From the NCBI GenBank assembly GCA_028713895.1, contig JAQTNH010000001.1, positions 307,808 to 371,807 of the forward strand: a stretch of 64,000 nt of DNA, in the 5' to 3' direction. The DNA is from Candidatus Nanoarchaeia archaeon. GTDB taxonomy: Archaea; Nanobdellota; Nanobdellia; CSSed11-243R1. The translations under genes were made by a program, and so were the position numbers. The notes under the pieces were generated by a model. It did not search any database and was not told the DNA's origin. It saw only the letters and a list, made by a program, of their open reading frames with translations. The first letter of the stretch is position 1, and each line of letters opens with the position of its first letter. Positions 3,752 through 40,160 of this stretch are shown here, piece after piece.

Positions 3752-3923
3752 CTATTCAGATTCCTTTTTCTTCCTGCCCTTTCTCTTGGAAGAGAAAGTG
3801 TAAGCTGCCCAAAGAGAACCTATTAATCTGATTCCTTTTCTTCTGCGTCCAAGCCTTTCGCTCCTGTTAGTCGCAAAGCCTTGAGGGAAAACAGATTAGT
3901 CTGATTCCTTTTCTTCTGCGTCC
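3752..3923. repeat. NusG 3'-tail triplication with intervening hairpin elements
   Basis: ttaRtctgattccttttcttctgcgtcc at 3896-3923 and 3823-3850; degraded third copy ctattcagattcctttttcttcc at 3752-3774. Confidence 0.88.
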
Positions 3924-4372
3924 TGCTCTTTCACGACGCGCACAGAGTCAAGCTTGACTGTAATCGGAATCGGGACTGCTGCCTCGAGAAGCTCGACAAT
4001 AACCTCTTCCTTTGCCTTTGTGATGCGCTGAACCCTTGCGCGCTCGCCCTTGAACGGGCCGGACACGATTTCAACGATGTCGCCGGTGTTGATTTTGACC
4101 TGCTCGACTGTGGTTGAAAGGAAGTGCTTGATTTCGTCAAGCCTGACTTCGCCGATAACGCCTTTTGAGTGCGTGACCCCGTAAATAGCCTTGTTGATGT
4201 CGTCTGCATTATCCGCCTCGACAAAGAAGTATCCCTTCACTTCACGCGGCTTTAAGATAGCATAAACTGAAAGTCCGAGCTGCCTGATTTTGAGCAGCAG
4301 TTTGTCTATAACCTGGGACTCGCGCCCTGTTGTTGTCCGTACTGCGAAAATTTTTGCCATTTTTTTAAACAC
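3896..4372 (-). CDS. spt5: transcription elongation factor Spt5/NusG
   Basis: MAKIFAVRTTTGRESQVIDKLL...GDIVEIVSGPFKGERARV (NGN plus KOW). Confidence 0.93.
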   Translation of the reverse strand: MFKKMAKIFAVRTTTGRESQVIDKLLLKIRQLGLSVYAILKPREVKGYFFVEADNADDINKAIYGVTHSKGVIGEVRLDEIKHFLSTTVEQVKINTGDIVEIVSGPFKGERARVQRITKAKEEVIVELLEAAVPIPITVKLDSVRVVKEQDAEEKESD

Positions 4373-7012: not shown

Positions 7013-7162
7013 TTATTCCTCGACTTTGATGGCTTCTGCCCTTTCTTTTTTCGAAAACCTTGAGACTACGTCTCGGGGCATCGCGACACAGTCGCAATGG
7101 AAAGTGTAAGCTGCCTAAAGAAAAAGAACTGAAAATATTAGTCTTCGACTTTGATGGCTGCG
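7013..7162. repeat. ferredoxin 3'-tail duplication flanking a hairpin element
   Basis: ttattcctcgactttgatggct (7013-7034) versus ttagtcttcgactttgatggct (7138-7159). Confidence 0.85.
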
Positions 7163-7320
7163 TGCGGACAATTGACCTCGCAAGCCCTGCATAAAATGCA
7201 TTTTGATGCGTCCTTAACCACGACCTGCTCGTTTTCCATGCCATAAACCTGAACAGGGCATACCTCTATGCATTTCTTGCAATTCGTACATTTAGCCTTG
7301 TCAATAGTAACCTTAGCCAT
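7138..7320 (-). CDS. 2x[4Fe-4S] ferredoxin
   Basis: CTNCKKCIEVCP and CILCRACEVNCP. Confidence 0.93.
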   Translation of the reverse strand: MAKVTIDKAKCTNCKKCIEVCPVQVYGMENEQVVVKDASKCILCRACEVNCPHAAIKVED

Positions 7321-7360
7321 TGTAAGAACATCAAAAAGAGGGTTTAAAAAGTTTGGGTTT

Positions 7361-7891
7361 TCAGGAGAGCGGAATCTGCGTGTAACAAAGGCTGTCGCCC
7401 CTGCAGACAGCTGAGAACGGATTTGTCCCTGTAATCAGGGTCATGTTCCTTCCGATAAGCATCGGGACGGGCTCGTCTGCCTTTGATGCAATGACTACTG
7501 CGTCATATTCAACATCCCACCCGAAGACGTGGCGGGTTACGTTGCGGGTTTCATACTCGCTTGCTGATGTTGTGCATGAAATCGGCGTTATTGCAGGGCC
7601 GTAGAGAGCTGAACCGCAGGCTGGAGTGAACAGCGCAGGCTTCATTTCAGAGAATATGTCTATTGTATCATACATTCCGAAAGTAAAATGCAGGGGGAGA
7701 GACATTGGAATAACCTGCGAGTATATTGCTTCGGACAGAACAGGCGATTTTGAGCAGTCAACCTTGGTGCCGTTGGCATAATAAAAAGTTTCTGTTGCCT
7801 GGGTGCATACTGCGGATGCAGACGAAAACGCCAAGCCAAAGAGCAGCGCTGCTATGAAAAGCTTCCATATTTTAAAAGATGTTTTTTCCAT
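7361..7891 (-). CDS. secreted protein with Sec-type signal peptide, pilus-locus associated
   Basis: MEKTSFKIWKLFIAALLFGLAFSSASA signal; several Cys; first ORF of the pilin-rich run. Confidence 0.65.
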   Translation of the reverse strand: MEKTSFKIWKLFIAALLFGLAFSSASAVCTQATETFYYANGTKVDCSKSPVLSEAIYSQVIPMSLPLHFTFGMYDTIDIFSEMKPALFTPACGSALYGPAITPISCTTSASEYETRNVTRHVFGWDVEYDAVVIASKADEPVPMLIGRNMTLITGTNPFSAVCRGDSLCYTQIPLS

Positions 7892-20121: not shown

Positions 20122-20787
20122 CTATTTGAAACATACCCCGTAATCCTGCGCTTCATTCTCGGAAGGCGCGATGCCTGGAACAGAGGAGTCTGCTGTGAAC
20201 TGCAGCGTGCACGGAACAAGAGCGGATGTGTCAATCTCCAGGTACTGCGTGCTTATTATGCGTTCGGAGCCGGACTGGATATCGGCCGGGGTTGTGCCGC
20301 TCCAGACATCCCTGGTTTGCTGGTACATGTGCACTGTTGCTTTTGCAGGCTCCATTCCGTTGTTAGTGACTTTCAGCGTGACAATCGCATATTTTGCATT
20401 TGTTTTCGGGAAATTCGCAGTGCATCCTGATGTGCAGGCATCTTTTGCGGATTTTGCAGGGTCCTCAGTGGGCGAACCAAATTTTGCATCGCAGCGCGCA
20501 TTGCATTCAGCGTAGCTGTCAGTTGAAATGCTTTCTACAGAAACAAGCATTGCAAGGCTGTCTGCTGTGCCCATGTGCGCTGCAGGGGAATAAAGAAGCC
20601 ATTTGACTCCTGTGTAACAAAGAAGCTGGTCATATGAGATGAAGGTGCCTGTGAAAAGCGAAATGACAACGACAGTGCTTATTATCAAAGACATGAACAA
20701 TCCTGCGAACACAATACCCTTTCTGCCCCTTTCTTTAGAAAAGAAAGGTGTAAGCTGCCCCAAAGAAACTAATATAGATTTCTTCAT
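20122..20787 (-). CDS. pilin-like secreted protein with repeat-derived N-terminal segment
   Basis: MKKSILVSLGQLTPFFSKERGRKGIVFAGLFMSLIISTVVVISLF; Cys-rich ectodomain. Confidence 0.62.
   Translation of the reverse strand: MKKSILVSLGQLTPFFSKERGRKGIVFAGLFMSLIISTVVVISLFTGTFISYDQLLCYTGVKWLLYSPAAHMGTADSLAMLVSVESISTDSYAECNARCDAKFGSPTEDPAKSAKDACTSGCTANFPKTNAKYAIVTLKVTNNGMEPAKATVHMYQQTRDVWSGTTPADIQSGSERIISTQYLEIDTSALVPCTLQFTADSSVPGIAPSENEAQDYGVCFK
20723..20769. repeat. dispersed hairpin repeat (family B) inside a coding region
   Basis: ctgcccctttctttagaaaagaaaggtgtaagctgccccaaagaaac. Confidence 0.85.
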
Positions 20788-20952
20788 GCGAACTCACCCT
20801 GCCCTTTTTTCTTCAAAAGAGAAAAGCGTAAGCTGCGGAAAAGAGAACATATCATCCTGCTCATGCGAACTCACCCCTGCCCTCTTTTCTCGCAAGAAAA
20901 GAGTGTAAGCTGCCCAGAAAAGAGGCATTTACGTATTTCATGCGAACTCACC
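20784..20952. repeat. two tandem 77-bp units: hairpin element plus duplicated TadC-gene tail
   Basis: tcatgcgaactcacc at 20784-20798, 20861-20875 and 20938-20952, separated by hairpin elements (20799-20848, 20877-20926). Confidence 0.92.
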
Positions 20953-23004
20953 AAGTGTTATTGCGATGCGCGCCATGCTTCCAAATCCGATTGTGACCAC
21001 GAGTGTTATGATAAGATAAACAGTCATTGATATAAAAAGCGAACGCTGTATGCTGTCAAGCATCTGCACCCTGTCATCGCCGTACTCAATCTTGCTCGCA
21101 AGCACAGTGGAGATGACAACAATCTCGACAAGATATATCCCGACAACTATCTGGAAAATCGGCAGGGGTATTGTGCTGCTCATCTGGAAGAACCCGAATG
21201 CCATGGAGCCCCCAAGGGAAGAGCCGCCTCCGAGAGTCGAGGGAAGGGATGCTGCGGTTGTTGCGCTGGTGATTTTTTCTCCGAGCACCGAGAGTATAAT
21301 CATAATCATCGCTGTCAAGCCGACAATTATCCCTGAGATAAGGGGCGCGATGAACGCTGTCTGGAACTTGATTGTTGAAATTGTCTCTGCAAGCACATCG
21401 CGGATTTTTTCCTCGATGCGGTGCACTGACTGGAGATAAGTCGAAATGTGCATGAGCGAGGTTGCCGCAACTTCCTGCGACTCCTTTGTTGACTCGATGA
21501 AAATTTTCATGACGCTCTTGATAAGGGCGGACGGGTAAAACACAAGCGCCCCGTAGACGCTGTCAAAAATTGCGCGCTTCAAATCCATACCGAGCTTCTG
21601 CATGTTGTTAACAACCTGGTGGATGAAATCCGCAATGTTTGAGTTCTTCATTGTCTGGGCTGTCTTCAGCATTGCAACTTCAGCAGGAACGCCCTCGGAC
21701 AAGCGGTTCCCTATCTGGAAAACTGCGTAGGAGAAATCATCCTCTGTGCTGCGGATTGCCTTGCGGATTGCAACACGTGGCCCGGTCGCGAGCTTGCAGA
21801 AAAATGCTATTGCAAACCCGAGAGCTGCAACCAGAAACATCGAGAAAAATATGTCGTTCTCAGAGGGCATCGCAGACTGGAAGTATAAAGCATAAACAAA
21901 GTAAACAGAACTGAACAAAAGGAAAACAATGACTGCGGGAATAATTGCGTGCACAGGCTTTCCAAACAGGATAAACTTGTTGCGCGGCGGAGCATCAGGG
22001 TGGTTCTCAACATCAATCTGCTGGAATGCTGCAGGGCGCGTTGCAAGAACCTGATAAATCAAAATGATTACAACGCCAGGAAGTATTATGTCGTACAATA
22101 TGAAAAGCGTCGTCGGATTAACGACATCCGCCATGAATGCGCCAATCAACGGGAGCATGACAAGCCCCATGATTGGGAGGGTGATGCCGAGCATGAAAAT
22201 TGCGGAGACTGGGGTTCGCAGGTTGTTGACATAGTGCACCATTGTCTCGTAAGTGCCGTCAAGGATGCGCTTCAATGCCTGGTCAAGCATGTTCAGCCGG
22301 CGCTCCTCGCTTGTCTGCACCAGGGAAGTTTCAATGAGATAAACTGAATCCACAAAAGCGTCATTGTAATCGCGCCACTGCTCAAGATAGTGGCTCAGGG
22401 CGTCAATGATGTCAACATATTTCTTGACAGAAACATCCCAGAGAAGTTTTGCGAGGTCGTCTGCAAGCGGGCCTTCAAGGTTCTCTGCAGCGAACTTCAC
22501 TGCAGCCTCGAGATTGGAAACGTTCTTCATGTAAATGACAATGTAAAGCACAGCCATTATCATCTCCGTGCCGACGCGGGAGCGGCGTATCATCAGGAGA
22601 CGCTGCGGATAACTGCGGAAATAAAAGAATGCAATCACTGCGCTAAGCATCAGGGTGACTGCAAAAAGCATCGAGATGAAAAGGAAACCTGCGCCCAAAA
22701 GGAATAGTGCCATGAACGCAAGCAGCGCGAATGCCATTGAGTCCTCTGCAGTGAGGTTCATGTTGAATGCCTTGAAAATTGTGTCTATCTCGCTCTTTTT
22801 CGGCTCATTGACTTTGTACTTGATGAAGCTGCCTGCAAATTTTGCGAGCTTTTCATATAGCATGCGTATGCGGTTCTTTCCTCCGGAGAAAATCTTGAAC
22901 TCGCGCGAAGTAATGTCCTCTGGGGTGCTGCCTCTTTTTTCAGAGATGTAATCGTTCAAGAGCCTTGAAGCGATTTCTTTTTCAGGTTGTTCTTTTTTAG
23001 CCAT
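20938..23004 (-). CDS. archaeal pilus/archaellum assembly membrane protein (FlaJ/TadC-like, apparently two fused T2SF-type modules)
   Basis: Start MAKKEQPEKEIASRLL at 23004; two similar hydrophobic modules; adjacent to the ATPase. Confidence 0.82.
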   Translation of the reverse strand: MAKKEQPEKEIASRLLNDYISEKRGSTPEDITSREFKIFSGGKNRIRMLYEKLAKFAGSFIKYKVNEPKKSEIDTIFKAFNMNLTAEDSMAFALLAFMALFLLGAGFLFISMLFAVTLMLSAVIAFFYFRSYPQRLLMIRRSRVGTEMIMAVLYIVIYMKNVSNLEAAVKFAAENLEGPLADDLAKLLWDVSVKKYVDIIDALSHYLEQWRDYNDAFVDSVYLIETSLVQTSEERRLNMLDQALKRILDGTYETMVHYVNNLRTPVSAIFMLGITLPIMGLVMLPLIGAFMADVVNPTTLFILYDIILPGVVIILIYQVLATRPAAFQQIDVENHPDAPPRNKFILFGKPVHAIIPAVIVFLLFSSVYFVYALYFQSAMPSENDIFFSMFLVAALGFAIAFFCKLATGPRVAIRKAIRSTEDDFSYAVFQIGNRLSEGVPAEVAMLKTAQTMKNSNIADFIHQVVNNMQKLGMDLKRAIFDSVYGALVFYPSALIKSVMKIFIESTKESQEVAATSLMHISTYLQSVHRIEEKIRDVLAETISTIKFQTAFIAPLISGIIVGLTAMIMIILSVLGEKITSATTAASLPSTLGGGSSLGGSMAFGFFQMSSTIPLPIFQIVVGIYLVEIVVISTVLASKIEYGDDRVQMLDSIQRSLFISMTVYLIITLVVTIGFGSMARIAITLGEFA

Positions 23005-23005
23005 T

Positions 23006-25315
23006 TTATTCCCTTGATGATTCAGCAATCCTTGATTTGAGCCATGTTTCGAATTCGCGCAGGACATCCCTCTTGTCGGGATACCCGTTCTCTGTGCTAA
23101 GCCTGCTGAAAATGTTGTGGAACGCGTCGTTCGCCTCGACAACAAAATTTGATTCAAGCAGCCCCTTCGGGCCCTCGATGAGCCTGGTTTTGTTCGCATA
23201 GTTTACCAGCATCTCTTTCAGCTCTCCGCGGAGAACAATGTTCTCCCATACGCGGTCCCAGTTCCCTGCCCAGTCCCGCACGCGCGATGCGATTGACTTG
23301 ACAATCTCTGAGCCGCCCTCAAGCAAATCTTTTGTAGCGTCAATGCGGTCGTTCTTTGCATCATAAGACATGAGGTTGACAAACCCGCCCTCTGTCATCG
23401 GGTCATTCTCCCATTTCTTGCGGACTTCTGTAATGTTGACAAGGCGGCGGTTCTCGGTAATCTGCCCTGGCGAACGGACTTTTCCTGCGATAAGAATAAT
23501 GTCTGTCGCCTTGAAGGATGTGCGCGGAACCTTCAAATCATTTACAACCCTGTCGAACACGCCGTATGGCGAGTCGCCGTGGATTGTCCCTGCAACAACA
23601 TTTGCAAGCGCGCCGATTCTCATTGATTCGTAAAGAGCAAGAGCTTCCTTTGAACGGACCTCTCCTATGATGAGAGCGGAGTCTCCAAGACGCAGCGAGG
23701 TGCGGATTCCATCCTCTGCAGAGAGCTCTGCCTTTTCTCCGACAATTGCAGAACGGACTTTCAGGGGAAGGATGTTGTACCCCAAATTCTTGAGATACTC
23801 ATCAGGAAGTTCAAGGGTGTCCTCAACTGTGATGACACGGTACTTGCGCATGATTTCAACCATGAGGGATGAAAGCAGGGAAGTTTTTCCGCTTCCCCTG
23901 GTTCCAGCGACAAGCACTGTGCGCGCCCCGTCAACAAGGAACGAAATCAGTCCTGCTGCAAGCGGAGTCATATTCTTGTTGTTTATGAAAAGCGGAAGTG
24001 TCCACGGGCGCTCCCTGTGCTGGCGGAATGCAAAAGCATAGCCAGTGGGCGAAAGAGGATTTTGGATTATTGAACTTCGCGCTGCCGCAACATCAGGGAT
24101 ATTAAGCTCGGTGTCAAGCACAGGATTTGCCTCGTCAAGAGGGCGTCCTGAAATCAAACGGAACCTTGACGCCCATGAGTCTGCCTCGCGGCGGTTTGGG
24201 ATTATGTTTGTATCGCACTCGCCGAATTTCGCATGCTTTACGAAAATAGGAGAGGAGCCTACAGGAGCATTGATGTAAATGTCCTCTATCTGCCTGTCCT
24301 GCAGAAGAACCTCAATCATCCCGAATCCGACAGTCAGGCGCACAAGAATTTTTGCGAGCTTCTGAATCTGCACGTATGAAATTGCTATCCCGCGCTTTGC
24401 CGCGACCTGGGTGATAAGGTCCTGCGCGATATTAAAGAAAACAGAACGCATGCGCTGGGGGTCAATGAACTCCTCCTCGCTCGGCTTGTAGCGCGCCATG
24501 ACTTCGCGCGCCTCATCAAGAAGAACGTATTCATCCTCGCTCAGCTGGAACTCGGGCGGAAGAACATGGTAACGCATCCTTATCTGTTTCGGAAGCTTGA
24601 GAATGGAAACATCCGCTTTCAAATCCTTGCCGACTGAATAGGACTCTATCTCCTCTGAAAATGTCGGGGGCTCAGCCTGCAGGCGCGTGAACATGAAGTT
24701 CGGGCTTATCATCGGCTCGAACATCTTGAAGTAAATGTCGCGCTCGCCTACCTTGTATCCGGCTATGTAAGGCTTTGCAAGCTTCACCAAATCAGTCTTT
24801 TCAAGAGTGCTTATGATTTCATCAAGGACTGAAATGAATATTTTTACAGGCTCCTGGAACTTTTTCTCGTAAGTATCCAGCTGCGCAACCTTTTCGCGCT
24901 TTGTGCGGATGAGAGTGACGTATGCGCCGATTGGGTCTGACTTAAGCTGGTCAATCACTATGCGCTTGAGCAGGGATATGAACTCAGGATAAAGGAACAT
25001 TGTATTTGAATCGGAAAGCCCGATTTTATGCGGGTTAAGAATATTCTTCTCCTTGATGAAATAGATGTATGCGTCTGCAATCTGGTTGAGAAGATTCACC
25101 TGCTCAAGAGGGTAGACATAATTCCGCTCAGCCTTGTAGGTTATTGTGGTGACTGTGCCGGTTTCAACCAGAAGGTCAACTGTGCGGGACATGCATTCAG
25201 GGCTGTTTTCAAGCGAAGGATAAAACGGACAGCCAAAGGTACTGACAATAAGGTTTGCCTCATTCCCTTCCCGCTGAACCTCGTAATCAAAACACTTGTT
25301 CTGCTGGTTTTCCAA
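23006..25315 (-). CDS. type II/IV secretion system ATPase (FlaI/TadA/VirB11 family)
   Basis: AGTRGSGKTSLLSSLMVEIM Walker A; RVITVEDTLELP; RLGDSALIIGEVRSKEALALYESMRIGALANVVAGTIHGDS. Confidence 0.93.
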   Translation of the reverse strand: MENQQNKCFDYEVQREGNEANLIVSTFGCPFYPSLENSPECMSRTVDLLVETGTVTTITYKAERNYVYPLEQVNLLNQIADAYIYFIKEKNILNPHKIGLSDSNTMFLYPEFISLLKRIVIDQLKSDPIGAYVTLIRTKREKVAQLDTYEKKFQEPVKIFISVLDEIISTLEKTDLVKLAKPYIAGYKVGERDIYFKMFEPMISPNFMFTRLQAEPPTFSEEIESYSVGKDLKADVSILKLPKQIRMRYHVLPPEFQLSEDEYVLLDEAREVMARYKPSEEEFIDPQRMRSVFFNIAQDLITQVAAKRGIAISYVQIQKLAKILVRLTVGFGMIEVLLQDRQIEDIYINAPVGSSPIFVKHAKFGECDTNIIPNRREADSWASRFRLISGRPLDEANPVLDTELNIPDVAAARSSIIQNPLSPTGYAFAFRQHRERPWTLPLFINNKNMTPLAAGLISFLVDGARTVLVAGTRGSGKTSLLSSLMVEIMRKYRVITVEDTLELPDEYLKNLGYNILPLKVRSAIVGEKAELSAEDGIRTSLRLGDSALIIGEVRSKEALALYESMRIGALANVVAGTIHGDSPYGVFDRVVNDLKVPRTSFKATDIILIAGKVRSPGQITENRRLVNITEVRKKWENDPMTEGGFVNLMSYDAKNDRIDATKDLLEGGSEIVKSIASRVRDWAGNWDRVWENIVLRGELKEMLVNYANKTRLIEGPKGLLESNFVVEANDAFHNIFSRLSTENGYPDKRDVLREFETWLKSRIAESSRE

Positions 25316-40024: not shown

Positions 40025-40087
40025 GAAAGGAGTTTATTCGCCAGAGGTTTATGGCTTTTAGGGTGTTGTCCAGTATGTCCAGTAATA

Positions 40088-40138
40088 CCGCCTTTTTCTC
40101 TTTGCAAAAGAGAAAAATGTAGGCTGCCAAAAAGAGAA
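40088..40138. repeat. dispersed hairpin repeat (family B), intergenic
   Basis: ccgcctttttctctttgcaaaagagaaaaatgtaggctgccaaaaagagaa. Confidence 0.8.
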
Positions 40139-40160
40139 ATAATTTACAAAAGAAACATTA

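Follow-up and report, generated by a model that had tools for sequence, protein, structure and literature searches.

An array of repeated gene tails and hairpins between a TadC/FlaJ-like and a pilin-like gene, together with corresponding loci in relatives, was very probably produced by a mobile hairpin element that inserts with a long target-site duplication. The array lies in a stretch of 64,000 nucleotides, here called the window, from a Candidatus Nanoarchaeia archaeon (genome G000; 1.07 Mb, 89.5% complete). The element would be small (about 50-100 bp) and non-autonomous, and each insertion would duplicate a stretch of its target. The array would then represent two successive insertions at one junction; a further, third copy lies just inside the next gene. 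Small genomes with overlapping genes offer little space for insertions. A long target-site duplication gives entry to a gene junction while both genes stay unbroken: where the element lands on a gene's last codons, the gene end remains complete and a spare copy lies past the element, and such spare tails mark the insertion.

Duplicated gene tails

The TadC/FlaJ-like gene is an open reading frame on the minus strand (20938-23067; its 5' end is unfixed and the open frame reaches 23199). It ends with the tail GGTGAGTTCGCATGA (T1, 20938-20952). The following features are all on the minus strand: insert 1 (20876-20937) with a hairpin element match at 20877-20929 (R1 63.6 bits), tail copy T2 (20861-20875) with the same letters as T1, insert 2 (20799-20860) with an element match at 20799-20852 (R1 68.6 bits), and tail copy T3 (20784-20798). 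The ORF list confirms that the ATGA in T3 is the start of the next gene (20122-20787, minus strand), an ORF for a pilin-like small membrane protein (MKKSIL...). The sequence-only reading had described three identical 15-bp tails 77 bp apart (20784, 20861, 20938), diverged hairpins between them and this use of the third tail as start codon. All of this is borne out, and the two inserts, each of 62 bp, differ by substitutions as well as indels. It had overlooked a third hairpin element, which the pilin-like gene carries in frame within its 5' end (20723-20774, minus strand, R1 62.9 bits), so that the N-terminus of the protein reads MKKSILVSLGQLTPFFSKERGRKG.... Compared with relatives, this element lengthens the N-terminus, the signal-peptide region, in frame.

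The three exact copies of GGTGAGTTCGCATGA at 77-bp spacing are the only ones in the 1.07-Mb genome, and Tandem Repeats Finder reports a single array here with a period of 77, 75% matches and 6% indels. First-order Markov simulation of the window, run 60 times, never produced an exact 15-mer recurring within 200 bp. A chance repeat is ruled out by this genome search, the simulations and the scan of ORF ends given below. Each insert leaves an open mini-ORF of 26 codons from ATGA to the next TGA, which may preserve translational coupling. The TadC/FlaJ-like gene has orthologues in 38 of 40 relatives and no Pfam match; the gene upstream of it is a T2SSE-type ATPase. Counterparts of the pilin-like gene are found downstream of the TadC-like gene in two relatives, G004 and G001.

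Two further genes of the window, both on the minus strand, show the same arrangement. The NusG/Spt5-like gene (3896-4372; Spt5-NGN and KOW domains) ends with T1 at 3896-3922. It is followed by a family-B hairpin insert (3850-3895), T2 (3823-3849; 26/27 identical to T1), a family-A hairpin element (3774-3822; R1 63.1 bits) and a diverged T3 with a 1-nt insertion (3752-3774). In the 4Fe-4S ferredoxin gene (frame 7138-7434), T1 (7138-7161) is separated by a long-loop copy of the element together with its left flank (7036-7137; R1 44.7 bits at 7036-7130) from a diverged T2 (7013-7036), with AIKVEE versus AIKVED before the stop. The sequence GGCAGCTTACAC occurs exactly 4 times in the genome, always within the window and on the minus strand, and at its sites at 3798 and 7104 the tail of the upstream gene is likewise repeated past the element.

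We scanned ORF ends for last 18 bp that recur nearby at 16/18 or better. Among 292 ORF ends in the window, only the NusG-like, ferredoxin and TadC-like genes are clear outliers, each with a hairpin insert; outside it, 1526 ORF ends from 360 kb of sequence yielded one more clear case at C1:800017, where a family-B array lies. A scan at peptide level added C1:70466 (WVDNYGK/WVDKYGK, each before a stop) and, less clearly, 478647 and 505279. These last three loci (L161, L169, L170) carry short inserts outside the main family, two of them at stop/start overlaps. In the Ca. Iainarchaeum STA_60 MAG (G060), the duplicated stretch is a gene tail at L244 (CDNCI(R/K)TGFID and stop) and L253 (REISIRRR and stop), a gene start at L262, and at L245 a stretch that looks like the end of an opposite-strand gene. 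A tRNA-Arg 3' end is duplicated at L139 in G007 and a tail ending in ...GWFD and stop at L158 in G031.

By hand count over L244, L253, ferredoxin and NusG, 13 of 15 differences between tail copies fall at third codon positions. The bias is suggestive; it looks as though each copy was coding for some of its history. It is not predicted for a purely neutral spare copy and is a point against the target-site duplication account. Constitutive translation of the spare tail does not follow from it: when L244 is polarised with an outgroup, the spare copy carries only 4 changes, 3 at third positions and 1 at a second position, which is not decisive.

Target-site duplication and mobility

The direct repeat begins exactly at the GGCAG end of the element. 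This right end (stem-GGCAG) meets the downstream target copy without a gap, whereas the left end is ragged. Abutting 14-mers that match at 13 or more of 14 positions, here called near-perfect, were compared with a control in which flanks were swapped between elements. They are present at 5/24 copies in G000 (control 0.9%), 4/37 in G060 (0.08%) and 4/50 elsewhere (0.12%), which pools to 13/111 copies against about 0.1-0.9%. The duplicated target measures about 15-36 bases, with ~15 bp visible at tadC and 35-36 bp in the clearest cases.

Relatives provide empty sites. In G004 and G001, GGTGAATTTGCATGA forms the end of the TadC-like gene, which runs straight into the overlapping start of the next gene and has no element there; that these two relatives are only 64-66% identical in the protein is a further point against the account. 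The orthologous sites of L244 in G063 and of L253 in G063 and G064 likewise hold one tail and no element. Alignment with empty-site orthologues, the check proposed with the sequence-only reading, thus returned element-free sites with a single tail. At the gene start of L262, G060 and G063 carry separate insertions 18 bp apart while G064 is empty; the direct repeats are 36 bp and 35 bp long, and the 35-bp copy in G063 is exact. The element is therefore mobile, since independent insertions with a similar duplication length have occurred at one gene. Dispersed homologous copies and empty orthologous sites, as expected of a non-autonomous element, are both present. Of the two readings offered earlier, insertion with a target-site duplication over the last codons plus stop is thus supported by the single-tail empty sites, the repeat abutting a fixed end and the insertions in two species.

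The other reading, an element dedicated to rebuilding gene ends, is unneeded, since L262, at a gene start, and L139, at a tRNA 3' end, show the same duplication. At a stop/start overlap, an insertion would survive only if the duplication left the upstream gene with its end and the downstream gene with its start. We infer that junction insertions survive by selection in packed operons; gene ends would appear regenerated because target-site duplication acts together with this selection, and no special mechanism is required. Clear duplications are absent in about 80% of copies. This frequency, which the earlier reading had proposed to measure, speaks against the strong version of rebuilding but not against plain insertion followed by decay. 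It does weigh on the target-site duplication account, which has to attribute the copies lacking a clear duplication to old insertions or to a different route.

Element structure and distribution

The element is laid out as TTTCTCTTT-SSGCAGCTTACRC-stem-loop-GGGCAG, and 12 aligned copies follow the order X1 - SSGCAGCTTACRC - X2 - loop - X' - GGGCAG. The X2/X' stem is base paired; 6 of its 9 pairs covary through changes on both sides. X1 resembles X2 (6.75 bases versus 5.80 with other elements), a modest excess between two arms that are both pyrimidine-rich. Judged by eye in copies with both target copies, terminal inverted repeats are absent: the right end is GGGCAG, and no CTGCCC stands at the left end beside T1. 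The stem bears no GTAG or CGTC tag, the element ends being SSGCAGCTTACRC and GGGCAG. A known Rfam RNA family is ruled out for the window, where no match exceeds the gathering score. A sister family B has the ends CGCCAGCG...GGCTG. By eye, left core and right end seem to covary, as CYTAC/GGCRG, CGCC/GGCTG and CGCG/GGCTC.

With the covariance model, ~22 full-length copies are found in G000 at E below 1e-3 and 45 matches in G060, and further copies occur in relatives of the same family and of other families. A scan of GTDB genomes with the core pattern returned 25 loci, mostly in Candidatus Diapherotrites / Ca. Iainarchaeum MAGs; on this distribution, the archaeon of the window would most likely belong to the same DPANN group. 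Core-pattern matches in Vibrio/Photobacterium are probably an unrelated motif, as none of 3 loci tested matched the covariance model. Viral contigs gave no match, which rules out viral carriage of the element.

All 22 copies in G000 with E below 1e-3 lie on the minus strand of the 956-kb contig C1 (64-912 kb). This single orientation is independent of the direction of neighbouring genes, also for the copies in the window. It is not predicted by simple transposition and is another point against the target-site duplication account. A replichore cause was considered and set aside; GC skew, sampled in 20 stretches, is weak and lacks a clear switch. One further copy in the window (40088-40143, minus strand, R1 64.3 bits) has no recognisable target duplication. 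Near it, at ~40055-40090, lies TTTTAGGGTGTTGTCCAGTATGTCCAGTA, which recurs in similar form in L051 and L089 and may be one end of a different repeat or of an insertion sequence. In G060, many copies (loci L235-L268) are preceded by the conserved, TATA-box-like TTGTTTATCAAAAGTTTA. At L140 in G009, near-identical element copies stand in tandem with ACAACAACC between them.

In two other Diapherotrites genomes, G042 and G056, the element is found inside 16S, 23S and tRNA genes. These insertions start with CTGCC at the upstream junction and are antisense to the orientation of the window copies. Intron-like insertions with this junction are L120 (G042:C2), L121, L125, L133 and L134 (G056). From the sites they occupy, the insertions in rRNA and tRNA genes are probably spliced introns.

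Routes of insertion and known elements

As for the chemistry, the best fit is a short hairpin RNA that undergoes target-primed reverse transcription by an enzyme acting in trans. We favour it because of the precise 3' hairpin end, the ragged 5' end, the variable target-site duplication and the lack of inverted repeats; it remains a tentative choice and the least certain part of our explanation. SINE-like retroelements share the constant 3' hairpin, the ragged 5' end and the variable duplication, and the enzyme in trans would be a further likeness. To our knowledge, none has been described in archaea. The partner expected of such an element was not found: G000, at 89.5% completeness, and G060 have no match to the reverse transcriptase family PF00078, and only G056 has one. 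A Cas1-family integrase (PF01867), as casposon- or CRISPR-type integration would require, is likewise without a match in G000 or G060. No significant element copy lies alongside the Y1, reverse transcriptase or Cas1 loci, which rules out an autonomous partner at these places, and no mobilising enzyme emerged among these three families, which also counts against the account.

A DDE-type insertion sequence could instead mobilise the element in trans. Long and variable duplications are known for IS1549 and IS1634, where they measure 8 to 514 bp and vary from copy to copy (PMC2266710). These insertion sequences are 1.5-2 kb long and have a transposase and inverted ends (PMC2266710); our element of about 60 bp has neither. 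The absence of terminal inverted repeats, with GGGCAG at the right and no CTGCCC at the left beside T1, makes this route unlikely. It also separates the element from MITEs, which are likewise small, non-autonomous and placed between target duplications; here the duplication is long and variable.

Improbable, too, is an element acting at the RNA level, that is, an archaeal intron spliced also from mRNA, with both tails used as coding sequence. The same element forms the ends of presumed introns in tRNA and rRNA genes elsewhere, and the predominance of third-position differences would fit. However, no bulge-helix-bulge motif is evident by eye at the tadC or NusG copies, the presumed intron copies in G042 and G056 run in the orientation opposite to that of the window copies, and introns do not produce flanking duplicates on their own.

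A Y1 transposase that moves a single-stranded hairpin at replication forks, as in IS200/IS605 or REP elements, is very improbable. The REP and tagged palindromic repeats (GTAG- and CGTC-tagged, including Rickettsia palindromic elements) are likewise short hairpins with conserved ends and many intergenic copies, some near stop codons or in frame within genes (PMC3733652). The shared strand of all 22 significant copies on contig C1 would suit this route, as would the Y1 genes of G060, G063 and G064. In contrast to REP, our element has another end sequence, target duplications of 15-36 bp, a core plus repeated arm in place of a simple tagged stem, and a host genome with no Y1 gene. The gene is also absent from G004, G002, G042 and G056, and the existing Y1 genes have no significant element copy adjoining them. 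A further objection is that we know of no target duplication at Y1 insertions.

Local tandem duplication, in which slippage or unequal crossing over multiplied a 77-bp unit of tail and hairpin whose copies later diverged, with no movement, would explain the exact period and identical tails and could have produced the second step of the array, but it deserves very little credence as the general cause, since a lone element already lies between two tails at ferredoxin, L244 and L253, the NusG inserts belong to different families, and the empty sites and independent insertions contradict it.

Integrative elements in tRNA genes and in the 3' ends of protein genes restore the gene 3' end with a duplicated copy. 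The likeness to the insertions described here ends there, as the ~60-bp element has no integrase or att homology and targets gene starts too. The literature searched contained no described element of this kind.

The hairpin also shares a feature with archaeal tRNA and rRNA introns, for which transposition has been proposed (PMC3293823) and direct repeats close to the intron borders have been described (PMC11782384). Its CTGCC end coincides with presumed intron junctions in other Diapherotrites genomes. In contrast to introns, the window copies lie at the ends of protein genes, in the opposite orientation and with duplicated exon sequence on both sides. Insertions may have given rise to introns, or introns may be the source from which the element spreads. 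Possible, though doubtful, is a prokaryotic counterpart of eukaryotic introners: a lineage-wide, retroposon-like Diapherotrites hairpin that inserts by target priming, reaches gene ends through long duplications and is a source of tRNA and rRNA introns. The shared hairpin makes the origin of archaeal introns testable by comparison of closely related Diapherotrites genomes. Rfam tRNA matches in G060 contain the element at L236, L241 and L243 and adjoin it at L235 and at the first element of L236; in several MAGs, copies adjoin tRNA ends within about a base.
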